Shown: in pieces, positions 17,317 to 59,067 of the stretch | Layout: each line of letters starts with the position of its first letter | Numbering within the stretch: position 1 is the first letter of the stretch | NCBI RefSeq assembly: GCF_009379765.1 | Contig: NZ_WHTD01000025.1 | Location: 1-64,000, forward strand | Direction of reading: 5' to 3' | Source: Actinophytocola sp. | GTDB taxonomy: Bacteria > Actinomycetota > Actinomycetes > Mycobacteriales > Pseudonocardiaceae | DNA length: 64,000 nt | Notes under the pieces: model-generated | The model's database searches: none | Seen by the model: only the letters and a program-made list of their open reading frames with translations | What the model was told of the DNA's origin: nothing | Position numbers and translations under genes: made by a program

Positions 17317-20300
17317 TCACGCTAGCGCGGTCCGCCCACCCGACGCCGCGGCCGAGAACTGTCGGTCCCCTCCCGTAGCGTCGAAATCGGGGGACCCCTG
17401 GGGGCCGTGCGAGTGGGCCGTTCGCACCGAGTTCACCCGACCGTGGCTGACCTCGACGATCAGGTCGGCGTAGGCCGTCTCCTCCTCGCGGTGCGTCACG
17501 TGGATCACCGTCGTGGGTAGGGCGCTGATCATCTCGAGCACGCGCCGTGCGGTGGGGATGTCCAGGTGCGCGGTGGGCTCGTCCAGCAGCACGAGGTCGG
17601 CGTGCGGGGCGGCGAGCAGCGCGCGGGCCAGCGCCAGTCGTTGGGCCTCGCCGCCGGACGCGGTCGCGGCGCGCCTCGTGTCGAGGCGGTGGGCCCAGTG
17701 GCCGATGCCGGCCAGGCGGAGCGCGTCGGCGAGCTGCGCGTCGGTCGCGTCGGGGTCGGCGAGGCGGAGGTTCTCGCGGACCGTCGTGCCGGCGAGCAGC
17801 GGTTCCTGAGGGCACCACGCGACGTCGCGCGGGATCTTCGCGGTACCGCGGTCGGCGTCCAAGAAGCCGAGCAGCAGGGCCAGGAGCGTCGACTTGCCGG
17901 CGCCGGACGGCCCGACGACCGCGACGTGCGTGCCGGGCCGGACGTCGAGGGTGACGTCCGTCAGCGCCGGCCCGGCCGCGCCCGGCCAGCGGGCGTCGAC
18001 GCCGAGCAGCTCGATGTGGTCGGCGTACTCGTGGCTTCGGGTGACGGGTTCCTCGGGCCGGGTGCGGGCGAGGGCGGCGCGGAGGGCCCGGTGGTGCTGG
18101 GCGGCCGGCGGGACGAGGGCGAGCACCTCGGCGAGGGCCAGCGGCAGGAGGGCGCAGACCGGGGCGAGAAGCGGGTCGAGCGTGCCGCCGGCGACCGCGG
18201 TGGCGGCGAGGGCCGTGCCGGCGACCGCTGCCGCCCCGGTTCCGAGCGTGCTGATCAGCGTGGCCGCACCCGCGCCGAAGGCCTCCCGCTTGGCGGACCT
18301 GGTCAGCTCGGCGTCCGTGGCGGCGATGGCGGCGCGGTGGCGGTGGTGCGCGCCGAACGCGATCAGCTCGGCGGCGGCATCGAGCAGGGTGAGCGTCCGG
18401 GTGGCGATCCGGCGCCGGCCGGTGGCGAGCCTGCTGCCGGCCCGGCGGTCGAGCGCGAGCGCGACGGCCGGCGCACCCAGTCCGGCCGCCGCGACCGCGA
18501 TGACGAGCGTGAACGCCGCGGCCGGAAGGATCACCAGCTGGACGAGCACGGCCGCCACGCATACGAGTGCCGCGACGAGCGGCGGGGTGAGCACGCGCGG
18601 GGTGAGGTCGCGGACGGTGTCGATGTCGTGGACCAGCGCGGGGAAGTCGGCGGTGTGGGCCGGGCCGTTGCGGGCGAGCCCGCGCCAGAGCGCGACCCGG
18701 TGGCCGCCGGCCGCACGGAAGGCGGCGTCGTGGGTGACGAGCCGCTCGAGGTAGCGCAGCACCGCCCGACCCAGCCCGAACGCGCGGACCCCCACGACCG
18801 CGACGGAGAGCGTGAGGATCGGCGGCTGCTGCGCGGCCTTGGCGATGAGCCAGGCCGAGGTCACGGTGAGCGCGACGCCGGCCAGGAGGGCGCAGGCGCC
18901 CAGCGCGGCACCGGCCAGCAGCCGGCGGTCGAGCAGCGTCGCGACCCGCGCCCGCGCCCGGGCCGCGGTCGCGGCCGGCCGGCTCGCGGGTGCCTCGGCC
19001 GCGGGGATGTCCTGAGTGGACGGTGTGGCTCGGTGGCTGGCGAGGATCACCGCGGCGCCGTTCCCGGCGGCCTCCTCGACGGCGGTCATGACGAGGCCGG
19101 CGGTGGCCGGGTCGAGGTGGGCGGTGGGCTCGTCGAGGAGCAGGAACATGGCGCCGTCGCGGAGCCGGCGCAGGGCGCGCGCGACGGCGACCCGCTGCCG
19201 CTCCCCCGTGGACAGCTCGGTGACCGGCCGGTCGAGCAGGTGCTCGACGGCCACCTTCGCCGCGATGTCCCGGTCCGCCGAACCGATCTCCTCGGCCACC
19301 GTGGCACCGGTGAAGGTCGGGGTCTGCGGGACCCAGGCGAGGTGGTGGCGCCAGGCCTCCGGGTCCAGGTCGGCGAGGTCCGCCCCGCCGACCTGGACCC
19401 TTCCCCCGGTCGGTCTCGTGAAGCCCAGCAGGACGGCGAACAGCGTCGACTTCCCGGTGCCGCTCGGCGAGTCGAGGCGGGTGATCTCGCCGGGGCGCGC
19501 GGTGAGCGACAGGCCGTCGGGGGCGTTTTCGTTGCGGCGGCGGACCGTCAGGTCGGTCACGACCAGGTCGCCCGGTGGGGGCGGGACGCCGGTGGTGGCC
19601 GGCGTGGTCGGGAGGTCGGCGACCCGGCGGGCGGCTTCGAGACCGTCCTCGCTGGCGTGGTGGGCGGCGCCGGCGGCCCGCAGCGGGAGGTAGCACTCCG
19701 GCGCGAGGATCAGGACGAACAGGCCCACCGCGAGGCCGAGGTCGCCGGACACCAGACGCAGGCCGATCGTCACGGCGACCAGGGCCACCGACAGCGTCGC
19801 GATGAGCTCGAGCGCCAGCGCGGAGGCGAACGCGATGCGGAGCGTGCCCATCGTGGCCGCCCGGTGCGCGTCCGAGGCCCGGCGGACCGCCTCGGCCTGG
19901 CCGGCGGCGCGGCGGAACGCGGTGAGGATCGGCAGGGCCCGCGCGAGCTCGAGCAGGTGGGCGGACAGCCGCCCGGTGGCGTCGGCGGCCTGGGTGACGC
20001 GGTCGCGGGTGCGCAGGCCGATCAGGATCGCGAACACCGGGACGAGCGGGAGCGTCACCGCGATCACGACGGCGGACGGCCAGTCGGCGAGCAGCACGAC
20101 GCCGCCGATGCCGACCGGGAGGACGGCGGCGTTCACGAGTGCGGGGAGGTAGCTGGTGAAGTAGCCGTCGAGGGCGTCGAGCCCGCGGGTGGCGAGCGCG
20201 GTGAGCTCGGCCGGCCCGGCTTCCACGATCCACTCCGGCCCGGCCCCGAGCGCCCGGTCGAGGAGGACGGCACGCAGCTCCGCCTTGGCCCCGGCCGCCG

Positions 20301-20556
20301 CCCGCGCGGCGACGACCTGGGTGGCCCAGCCGAGGATCGCGCGGGCGAGCACCGCACCGGCGAGCACCCCCAGCCGCTCGCCGATGGGTGCCCCCGCCCC
20401 CCGCACGACATCCGCCAACACGGAGGCGACCGCCCACGCCTGCACGACGAGCGCCACCGCGCTGACGGCGGCGAGCACCGCACACCCGACGAGCGCCCGC
20501 CGCGCGACCCGGGACAGCCGCAGCGCGCCGAGCGGGCCGGATTGCTTGGTGGTCAT
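17317..20556 (-). CDS. cydDC: Fused CydDC-type thiol reductant ABC exporter
   Basis: Two TM domains and two NBDs in one ORF (SPSGTGKST...LSTGERQRVAVARAL; GPSGAGKST...SGGEAQRLALARAL); next to cydB-cydA. Confidence 0.88.
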   Translation of the reverse strand: MTTKQSGPLGALRLSRVARRALVGCAVLAAVSAVALVVQAWAVASVLADVVRGAGAPIGERLGVLAGAVLARAILGWATQVVAARAAAGAKAELRAVLLDRALGAGPEWIVEAGPAELTALATRGLDALDGYFTSYLPALVNAAVLPVGIGGVVLLADWPSAVVIAVTLPLVPVFAILIGLRTRDRVTQAADATGRLSAHLLELARALPILTAFRRAAGQAEAVRRASDAHRAATMGTLRIAFASALALELIATLSVALVAVTIGLRLVSGDLGLAVGLFVLILAPECYLPLRAAGAAHHASEDGLEAARRVADLPTTPATTGVPPPPGDLVVTDLTVRRRNENAPDGLSLTARPGEITRLDSPSGTGKSTLFAVLLGFTRPTGGRVQVGGADLADLDPEAWRHHLAWVPQTPTFTGATVAEEIGSADRDIAAKVAVEHLLDRPVTELSTGERQRVAVARALRRLRDGAMFLLLDEPTAHLDPATAGLVMTAVEEAAGNGAAVILASHRATPSTQDIPAAEAPASRPAATAARARARVATLLDRRLLAGAALGACALLAGVALTVTSAWLIAKAAQQPPILTLSVAVVGVRAFGLGRAVLRYLERLVTHDAAFRAAGGHRVALWRGLARNGPAHTADFPALVHDIDTVRDLTPRVLTPPLVAALVCVAAVLVQLVILPAAAFTLVIAVAAAGLGAPAVALALDRRAGSRLATGRRRIATRTLTLLDAAAELIAFGAHHRHRAAIAATDAELTRSAKREAFGAGAATLISTLGTGAAAVAGTALAATAVAGGTLDPLLAPVCALLPLALAEVLALVPPAAQHHRALRAALARTRPEEPVTRSHEYADHIELLGVDARWPGAAGPALTDVTLDVRPGTHVAVVGPSGAGKSTLLALLLGFLDADRGTAKIPRDVAWCPQEPLLAGTTVRENLRLADPDATDAQLADALRLAGIGHWAHRLDTRRAATASGGEAQRLALARALLAAPHADLVLLDEPTAHLDIPTARRVLEMISALPTTVIHVTHREEETAYADLIVEVSHGRVNSVRTAHSHGPQGSPDFDATGGDRQFSAAASGGRTALA

Positions 20557-20594
20557 GCGCTCGCCCGACCGATCACTCCACTCGCGACCCGACG

Positions 20595-20685
20595 TTGTCC
20601 ACAGGTCCGACACAGCCCCCCTGCCCAGGCGAAACTCGAATAGACTGGCGCTGAGGGGTGCCCCCGGAGTGGGCGGGGGCTTGCG
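20595..20685 (+). other. Recurring intergenic element, copy A (DnaA-box-like + TAGACTG + hairpin)
   Basis: TTGTCCACA 20595-20603; TAGACTG 20641-20647; GGGGTGCCCCCGGAGTGGGCGGGGGCTTGCG 20655-20685. Confidence 0.6.
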
Positions 20686-20719
20686 TTTCTCGAGTTCTGC
20701 ACGCGCGCGCGAGCGAGTT

Positions 20720-21727
20720 TCATGGGGTGTGGGCCTTCGGGATGTGGTGGGTTCCTATCCGCTTGCGGAAGACCCAGTAGGTCCAGCCTTGGTACACCAG
20801 CACCGCCGGCGTGCCGAACGCCGCCACCCAGGTCATCACCCGCAGGGTGTAGGGGCTCGACGCAGTGTCCGCTATGGACAGTGACCAGGCCGGGTCGAGG
20901 GTCGAGGGCAGCACGTTTGGGTAGAGGGCGCCGAACAGGGCCGTCACCGCCGCCGCCAGGGCCACCCCCAGTAGCGCGAAGGCCTGGCCCTCGCGCGCCG
21001 CCGCGAGGCGGAGCCACGCACCGGCGCCCGCGGCCGGCACCACCGCCAGCGCAACCCAGGTCCACCCCGAACCCTCGCGGAGCTGGACCACCAGCAGCAG
21101 CGCCACCAGGGGTGCCAGAGCCAGCGGCGCGACGGCCAAGGCCAACCGGCGGGCTCGCTCCCGAACGGGGCCCTCGGTCTTCAACGTGAGGAACACCGCG
21201 CCGTGGACCAGGGCGAAGCCGGCCACGCCCAACGCACCCAGCAGGGTCTCCCAGCGCAGCGCGGCGAACGGGGAGCCGACCCGGTTCCCCGCCCCGTCCA
21301 ACGGCAGGCCCAGCACGTTCCAGGACAGCACCAGGCCGACACCCAGCGCCGCCACCGCCGAGCCGGCGGTGATCACCGTGTCCCACGTGGCTCGCCAGCG
21401 CGCCGAGTCGACCTTGCCGCGGTACTCGAACGCCACGCCACGGCCGATCAGCGCCAGCAGCACCAGCAGCAGTGGCAGGTACGCGGCGCTGAACAGGCCC
21501 GCGTACCACCCCGGGAACGCCGCGAACGTCGCCCCGGCCGCGACGATCAGCCACACCTCGTTGCCGTCCCACACCGGGCCGATCGTGTTCACGAGCACCC
21601 GGCGCGACGCCTCGTCCCGGCCGAGCACCCGCAGCAGCATCCCGACGCCGAAGTCGAAGCCCTCCAGGAACAGGTAGCCGAGCCACAGCAAGGCGATGAT
21701 CAGGAACCAGACGGTCGCCAGATCCAC
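20720..21727 (-). CDS. cydB: Cytochrome bd ubiquinol oxidase subunit II
   Basis: MDLATVWFLIIALLWLGYLFLEGFDFGVGML. Confidence 0.93.
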   Translation of the reverse strand: MDLATVWFLIIALLWLGYLFLEGFDFGVGMLLRVLGRDEASRRVLVNTIGPVWDGNEVWLIVAAGATFAAFPGWYAGLFSAAYLPLLLVLLALIGRGVAFEYRGKVDSARWRATWDTVITAGSAVAALGVGLVLSWNVLGLPLDGAGNRVGSPFAALRWETLLGALGVAGFALVHGAVFLTLKTEGPVRERARRLALAVAPLALAPLVALLLVVQLREGSGWTWVALAVVPAAGAGAWLRLAAAREGQAFALLGVALAAAVTALFGALYPNVLPSTLDPAWSLSIADTASSPYTLRVMTWVAAFGTPAVLVYQGWTYWVFRKRIGTHHIPKAHTP

Positions 21728-41833: not shown

Positions 41834-41945
41834 TTGTCCACAACCCAGGAGTTATCCACAACCAAGATCGACACCGCCGGGTCCGACGCCCCCGACCGAT
41901 AGAATGGACGTATCGGGGTGCCCCCGGAGAGGGTGGGGGTTTGCC
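41834..41945 (+). other. Recurring intergenic element, copy B
   Basis: TTGTCCACA 41834-41842; TTATCCACA 41852-41860; TAGAATG 41900-41906; CGGGGTGCCCCCGGAGAGGGTGGGGGTTTGCC. Confidence 0.6.
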
Positions 41946-42039
41946 ACCGCGAGGCGGTTCGCGGACAAGGGTTCGGCAAGGGCGGGGTGGCCCAGGCGTC
42001 GGTCGGCCCCGGCACCTGGGCCCCGTCCTCACCGCGGCG

Positions 42040-58198: not shown

Positions 58199-58410
58199 TT
58201 GTCCACAGCCCGCGAAGTTGTCCACAGCCGCCGCCGACGCCCCCTTTCCGTCGGCACGACCCGATAGACTGACTCCGGGGAGTGCCGGAGAAACGGTCTG
58301 GTGTCATGAGCCACGAGTGCGACGCTAACGCAGGCCAGGAAGACGGTCGCCCGTTCGTAAAGGGACTTCTCTTCCCGGCTACCGCCCGGGGAGGGGCTTT
58401 GCGTTCCTGA
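58199..58410 (+). other. Recurring intergenic element, copy C (expanded)
   Basis: TTGTCCACA 58199-58207 and 58218-58226; TAGACTG 58265-58271; ends CCCGGGGAGGGGCTTTGCG. Confidence 0.5.
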
Positions 58411-58417
58411 GGTGAGG

Positions 58418-58627
58418 CTAGACCGGAGGAACGAAGCCAGGGATCCAGCCGGGGTCATCGGAGTCACCGCACACTGGGCAAGGCTCCTCGACCATGCCGC
58501 CAGGCATACGGTCGACCCACACCGTGCCGTTACCGGGCAGGATCATCGGCCTGATTGTTCCGTCGTCCGTTCGGTACTGGGTGACCTGCCGGCACCCATG
58601 ACAAACCGTCCGGACACTCTCCGTCAT
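58418..58627 (-). CDS. Small putative zinc-ribbon protein
   Basis: MTESVRTVCHGCRQVTQYRTDDG...EEPCPVCGDSDDPGWIPGFVPPV; two CxxC pairs. Confidence 0.55.
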   Translation of the reverse strand: MTESVRTVCHGCRQVTQYRTDDGTIRPMILPGNGTVWVDRMPGGMVEEPCPVCGDSDDPGWIPGFVPPV

Positions 58628-58716
58628 CGGTTCATCCATCCTGACCCGCCGCACTGCTTGCAGATCTCCGCGTCGTACACCGTATGTGTCTTACACGCGC
58701 GCGTGCGCGCGACGGG

Positions 58717-59067
58717 TCATGGTTTGTCCTCCGCGTTCTCGGCTCGGCGCAGCTGCCAGGCGGCCAGCAGCGACAGCGCCGGGTACGGGAGCACCGCCAG
58801 GGCCAGCCAGGAGATCGGGATTCCCATCAGCCGCACCGTGTCCAGCCCGGGGAACAACGCGAAGACCAGCGGAAGGCCCAGGATGCCCACGAACAGCAGG
58901 ACGAGCGGGGCGACGGCCAGGCGACGCTGGGCCCGGTAGAGCTCCGCGGCCCGCTCCGCTCCCGCGGGGTCCAGCTTGGGCACCCGCCAGCGGCCACGCA
59001 GCCTCCTGCGGGAATGCGCCAGCCGGGTCTGCGGGCTCATCACCGCGACCCGCTTGTGGCCCGGCAT
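58717..59067 (-). CDS. Small membrane protein of the symporter/LytTR module
   Basis: Two TM; VFALFPGLDTVRLMGIPISWLALAVLPYPALSLLAAWQLRRAENAEDKP; overlaps RR by 1 nt. Confidence 0.75.
   Translation of the reverse strand: MPGHKRVAVMSPQTRLAHSRRRLRGRWRVPKLDPAGAERAAELYRAQRRLAVAPLVLLFVGILGLPLVFALFPGLDTVRLMGIPISWLALAVLPYPALSLLAAWQLRRAENAEDKP

Follow-up and report, generated by a model that had tools for sequence, protein, structure and literature searches.

A repeat of about 145 bp in Actinophytocola and other Pseudonocardiaceae: a probable non-autonomous mobile element with DnaA-box-like sites and a putative promoter

Dispersed palindromes of the REP, BOX, RUP, ERIC and SPRITE type are intergenic, lie near the 3′ ends of genes, form hairpins and are present in many copies. 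The element described here resembles them in part; it is larger, however, carries a putative promoter and upstream boxes at fixed distances, and has no sequence resemblance to any of them. A review that lists REP, RUP and SPRITE also treats the Correia elements (CREE) of Neisseria and other promoter-bearing bacterial MITEs (PMC10969869). As with these, the present repeats are short, non-coding, dispersed, intergenic and multi-copy, and combine a predicted promoter with a candidate protein-binding site. The sequences are unrelated, however, and the site is a DnaA-box-like pair instead of the IHF site of Correia. The repeats also lie at gene 3′ ends and not upstream of genes, and they show no consistent terminal inverted repeats.

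Two other systems bear on the locus. For both Streptomyces coelicolor and Mycobacterium tuberculosis, the motif TTGTCCACA is listed as the high-affinity DnaA box (PMC4285127). The element is like DnaA box clusters outside oriC and DnaA-regulated promoters in having exact actinobacterial TTGTCCACA motifs, paired and near a promoter, but here the predicted boxes are built into a repeated, probably mobile unit that also has a G/C block. The PafBC-dependent DNA-damage promoter RecA-NDp has the form tTGTCRgtg-N8-TAnnnT (PMC5656591); a subset of the copies in the genome studied here is similar to it, and copy A differs.

Copy A lies between cydB and cydD in a 64,000-nucleotide stretch of Actinophytocola sp. 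(the window; contig NZ_WHTD01000025.1, positions 1–64,000), which also holds copies B and C (Table 1). The preferred reading, with a probability of roughly 0.6, is that copy A is one of a family of mobile elements found in Pseudonocardiaceae, non-coding and non-autonomous, about 145 bp long and each a miniature transcription unit. When 161 bp around copy A were searched against the 8.36 Mb genome, about 20 clear relatives were found, and the covariance model R1, consisting of the −10 plus the G/C block and used for copy counts across genomes, finds 20 copies at E < 1e-6. The sequence-only reading had suggested a dispersed unit or a mobile-element remnant and had set about four genomic copies as the minimum; these 20 strong copies, together with the spread among genera and the empty orthologous sites described below, bear it out. 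With R1, all five congeners searched have 9–57 copies each. Of 32 Pseudonocardiaceae genera in the sample, 14 have at least one copy, with up to 53 copies outside Actinophytocola, and none was found with the same model in 24 genomes of other families in the order. Matches to the hairpin pattern in named genomes are from Actinophytocola, Actinocrispum and Herbihabitans, all Pseudonocardiaceae. Four hairpin-pattern matches in gut-bacterial and Longimicrobiales sequences have no boxes and are considered chance.

Table 1. Positions of the element copies and their parts in the window
Feature	Position	Strand	Remark
Copy A, extra DNA between cydB stop and cydD start	20558–20719	+	missing at the junction in four congeners
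Copy A, repeated unit, about −66 to about +77 relative to −10	~20575–20718	+	pairwise alignments of genomic copies
TCATG, left half of possible 5-bp target-site duplication	20553–20557		holds cydD start codon (read on −); direct reading
TCATG, right half of possible duplication	20720–20724		holds cydB stop codon (read on −)
Copy A, degenerate first box CTCCACTCG	20576–20584	+	19 bp ahead of intact box; other copies have TTGTCCACA there
Copy A, intact box TTGTCCACA	20595–20603	+	equals DnaA box of Streptomyces and Mycobacterium
Copy A, −10 hexamer TAGACT	20641–20646	+	followed by GG; TAnnnT in every copy examined
Copy A, G/C block GGGG-TG-CCCCC-GGAG-T-GGGC-GGGGG	20655–20679	+	conserved; also four G-runs
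Copy A, C5/G5 stem	20661–20665 / 20675–20679	+	within G/C block
Copy A, 3′ end of unit, GC-alternating GCACGCGCGCGCGAGCG	20699–20715	+
Copy B	41834–41977	+	right end approximate
Copy B, boxes	41834–41842, 41852–41860	+
Copy B, −10 TAGAAT	41900–41905	+
Copy B, G/C block	41915–41939	+
Copy C, left part	58199–58271	+	boxes 58199–58207 and 58218–58226; −10 TAGACT 58265–58270
Copy C, serine-recombinase gene-start fragment splitting the hairpin halves	58282–58386	+	limits approximate; start resembles degenerate recombinase gene in L017
Copy C, right-half-like element sequence GGGGAGGGGCTTTGCGTTCC	58389–58408	+	direct comparison with consensus
Copy C, second insert, zinc-ribbon segment	58422–58692	+	recurs at C61:19224 and C106:17226

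The layout of the unit is constant: two TTRTCCACA boxes 66 and 47 bp before TAnnnT, then GGGG-N2-6-CCCCC-GG(A/T)G...GGGY-GGGGG. Among 44 tabulated copies, box 1 (TTGTCCACA or TTATCCACA) starts 65–67 bp and box 2 starts 46–49 bp before the −10, and most copies have the two boxes 19 bp apart. Where boxes are present their spacing is the same across genera, and the DNA between them is poorly conserved. The degenerate first box of copy A recurs in congeners. The −10 is always TAnnnT, most commonly TAGACT, TAGAAT or TAGGCT, and GG usually comes next. The unit ends 70–79 bp past the −10; here, the end usually falls in a stretch resembling GCGCGCGAG, a statement that holds for this genome.

Much of this was visible in copy A itself. 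The strings reported there earlier (TTGTCCACA at 20595, TAGACTG at 20641 and GGGGTGCCCCCGGAGTGGGCGGGGGCTTGCG at 20655) are all present, and so is the 46-bp distance from box start to −10, which is 46–49 bp in all tabulated copies having that box (42 of 44). The near-identity of copies A and B was also noted correctly: the window has two occurrences of a 30-mer (at 20655 and 41915), and shuffled sequences give an expectation of 0.00. The extent first given, 20595–20685, is too short for the unit and for the DNA absent from congeners. Taken alone, neither TTGTCCACA with up to one mismatch nor TAGAMTG is clearly enriched in the window; the significance is in the arrangement of the motifs, not in single motifs.

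The interpretation of the boxes as probable DnaA sites gains from their fixed spacing across genera and from the genome's own dnaA–dnaN region, where one exact and three one-mismatch TTGTCCACA boxes lie within about 250 bp, and from an exact box just upstream of dnaA. The proposed −10 hexamer is likewise consistent with the fixed spacing across genera, and with retention of TAnnnT while the inner bases vary. As to promoter class, copies L149, L151, L155, L156 and L157 of this genome match 7–8 of the nine RecA-NDp positions at exactly N8. Copy A matches one of nine, and the tabulated copies of other genomes have no match at N8; the PafBC-like match is thus local variation, and a PafBC promoter was rejected as a general rule since only a subset of the copies in this genome fits. 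The right flank of copy L011 (contig C135, about 17365–17450) has a further TTGTCCACA directly after the element, as well as CTGTCGGTG-N8-TAGGCT, which closely matches the RecA-NDp type and precedes GGCCGGAGG.

The G/C block follows the pattern GGGG, 2–6 bases, CCCCC, GG(A/T)G or GGG, 1–3 bases, GGGY, GGGGG in 100 of 104 distinct copies. The distance from the C-run to the last G-run is 8, 9 or 10 nt, so that no reading frame is kept, which rules out a protein-coding reading (GTG CCC CCG GAG ...). All 21 loop variants start with GGG, GGAG or GGTG, so that every variant offers four G-runs; a quadruplex formed by the G-rich strand would fit the conservation as well as a hairpin does.

Some copies depart from the general plan. 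In one genus (G015, four loci) inverted boxes (TGTGGA...) occur at similar distances, together with a TTGAC-like −35. Three Actinocrispum copies have no boxes, and upstream they show instead an inverted repeat around CGAACGG...CCGTTCG; on the evidence of these copies the upstream module seems exchangeable. The inverted and the missing boxes together indicate that the core consists of the −10 and the G/C block, with the box pair as an upstream module of almost general occurrence. A second subfamily, seen at six congener loci, has TAGACTGGCAAGGCGGGACGCCCCCGGGATCGGGTGGGGG, usually followed by a GCGCGCGCGAG stretch.

Evidence bearing on mobility comes from orthologous sites. The matches to cydB and cydD are 1–36 bp apart (overlapping or nearly touching) in congeners G002, G003, G004 and G005, versus about 180–220 bp here; the junction in G001 holds unrelated DNA. 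In this genome the junction has 162 extra bases with TCATG on each side. As TCATG holds the cydD start and cydB stop codons, it fits either a 5-bp duplication or the mere retention of both codons, and it is the sole site with a possible target-site duplication, the limits of other sites being unclear. The ends of the copy A insertion carry inverted repeats matching at 9 of 10 bp (20558–20567 and 20706–20715), and none were seen by eye in the two-box copies. At three further sites (L013, L011 and L002, contig C135) the element is absent from every congener with a readable site. Absence at any of the sites compared could partly reflect loss, since the congeners are only about 75–84% identical in DNA. 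Boxes without the −10 and block are found at the orthologous sites of G005 (at L011) and of G002 and G004 (at L013), and boxes and core may therefore evolve separately.

Comparison of copies points in the same direction. Copies L155 and L156 lie 5 kb apart; their 94.5% identity covers the unit exactly (−66 to +79), and their flanks are unrelated. In tails and spacers, copies of one genome are closer to each other than to those of congeners (0.57 versus 0.45, and 0.64 versus 0.55), as expected from within-genome amplification. Some of the properties of a MITE are found here: a short non-coding unit, many dispersed copies with unrelated flanks, and insertion polymorphism in the form of empty sites. 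It counts against mobility that no transposase or autonomous parent was noticed in a non-systematic look. An association with DUF222 genes, as for a 13E12-type (DUF222/HNH) repeat, was also considered and set aside, as none of the 21 DUF222 matches in the genome has a box at its locus. On balance the element appears to behave as a small non-autonomous mobile element with its own putative promoter. The insertion (20553–20724) splits cydB from cydD, genes that overlap or nearly touch in congeners, and translational coupling in cydBDC has probably been lost here.

The gene neighbourhood was assessed by crude gene calling from third-position GC around 104 copies. The left neighbour is on the plus strand in 54 and on the minus strand in 18; the right neighbour is on the minus strand in 50 and on the plus strand in 20, with 27 convergent and two divergent pairs. 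In 26 of the 54 cases with a plus-strand left neighbour its stop codon lies 66–84 bp before the −10, that is, the element begins right after the stop. It does not appear that the elements serve neighbouring genes as promoters.

This location past stop codons and between convergent genes, with a G/C hairpin, might recall U-less transcription terminators that resemble each other by chance; that explanation is highly improbable, because it accounts neither for boxes and a −10 at fixed distances nor for some 145 bp common to the copies, and copy A is inside an operon on the opposite strand. A family of multi-copy small-RNA genes kept by the host, whose short transcript would pair with C-rich targets through its GGAG...GGG loop, agrees with a conserved −10, a conserved block right at the transcript start and loop bases almost as conserved as the stem. 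The RNA evidence goes against it. The G–C to G–T difference between copies A and B, taken in the sequence-only reading as an RNA-compatible change, concerns the closing pair, which is often mismatched (G–A in 23 of 100 copies). In these 100 copies the C5/G5 stem is invariant at its five inner pairs, so they carry no information on covariation, and no compensatory base changes were found in these copies. Folding is no better than that of shuffled sequences (z of −0.63 and +1.03 for copy A, −1.35 for copy B), and Rfam has no match for copy A or 11 other copies. The structured-RNA part of the earlier proposal is thus unsupported, covariation being absent and folding ordinary for the composition. 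As the tested copies are also absent from orthologous sites, small-RNA genes maintained by the host are unlikely; a functional RNA is possible but unsupported.

The boxes invite an alternative in which box pairs and promoter have been spread by selection as host sites that bind DnaA and tie its availability, or local transcription, to replication. Consistent with it are the exact agreement of the boxes with the consensus, in which position 3 is G or A, and the dominant 19-bp pair spacing: counted at all spacings there are 94 box pairs in G004, 20 here and none in a reversed control, with 10 bases between boxes strongly preferred. There are also pairs that have no block, some of them next to reversed RecA-NDp-like promoters and ahead of yraN-like genes. 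Titration, however, needs neither a −10 nor a G/C block, the positions are not conserved, the copies are unit-sized with sharp ends and those of Actinocrispum have no boxes; such host sites are a rather improbable explanation of the family. Less probable again is a variant of the mobile reading in which the units are origin-like: DnaA bound at a fixed distance would drive transcription into an R-loop or quadruplex block, coupling transcription or primer formation to the initiator as part of the element's self-copying. It is very doubtful, finally, that the repeated unit is the target, or attB site, of a serine-recombinase element. In its favour, a recombinase gene starts inside or beside the block in copies C and L017, and the hairpin halves of copy C flank the fragment. 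These are the only two such cases among all copies, however, five intact relatives of the recombinase (L171–L175) have no element upstream, and a target need not be repeated together with a promoter. The same five relatives led to rejection of the recombinase as autonomous parent; the block may have served it as a landing site.

Copy C (58199–58720) is a composite with two nested inserts, the recombinase start breaking the block and the zinc-ribbon segment breaking the tail. It had been listed as a third copy, which is right for both boxes and the −10; there is no intact hairpin. Another copy, L017, continues into a degenerate gene for a recombinase of that kind. An insertion-sequence-like start, AGGAATTGTCTCAAATTAACTTGTACATG, is found directly 3′ of the −10 region at a box-pair site (L094, C221) and again downstream of L017 (L073, C201). 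At four congener loci, pairs of the form TTGTCCACA-N10-TTGTCCACA stand before genes judged by eye to be yraN-like and DUF4192-like; some have an upstream ACCGACA (reversed RecA-NDp), and a wider box-pair regulon possibly exists.

For the mobile, promoter-bearing unit a plausible course of events can be outlined. Copying and insertion of the unit would depend on an enzyme provided in trans, and insertions would persist mainly just past stop codons, where they are least harmful. A protein that reads TTRTCCACA, most simply DnaA, may bind about 59 and 78 bp upstream of the start site and govern a σA-type promoter. RNA polymerase would start a few bases before the G-run and run into the block, which could form the C5/G5 hairpin, or a G-quadruplex or R-loop on the G-rich strand, the outcome probably being a very short RNA or a stall. 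Copy A would have entered cydBDC in this way, splitting the cydB–cydD overlap and placing an antisense-facing putative promoter between the two genes.

The element is absent from Rfam and from the searchable literature, whose coverage was incomplete; the family and its anatomy are apparently undescribed, and the kind, promoter-bearing miniature elements, is already known. In practical terms, copies can sit inside operons, as in cydBDC, and in one congener near contig ends. The repeat family extends over a large part of a single actinobacterial family, and in the genomes sampled it reaches up to 57 model-detected copies. Each copy adds a putative promoter and most add DnaA-box-like sites, which bears on the distribution of DnaA along the chromosome, pervasive antisense transcription at the ends of genes, and the spread of small promoter-bearing elements with no gene of their own.
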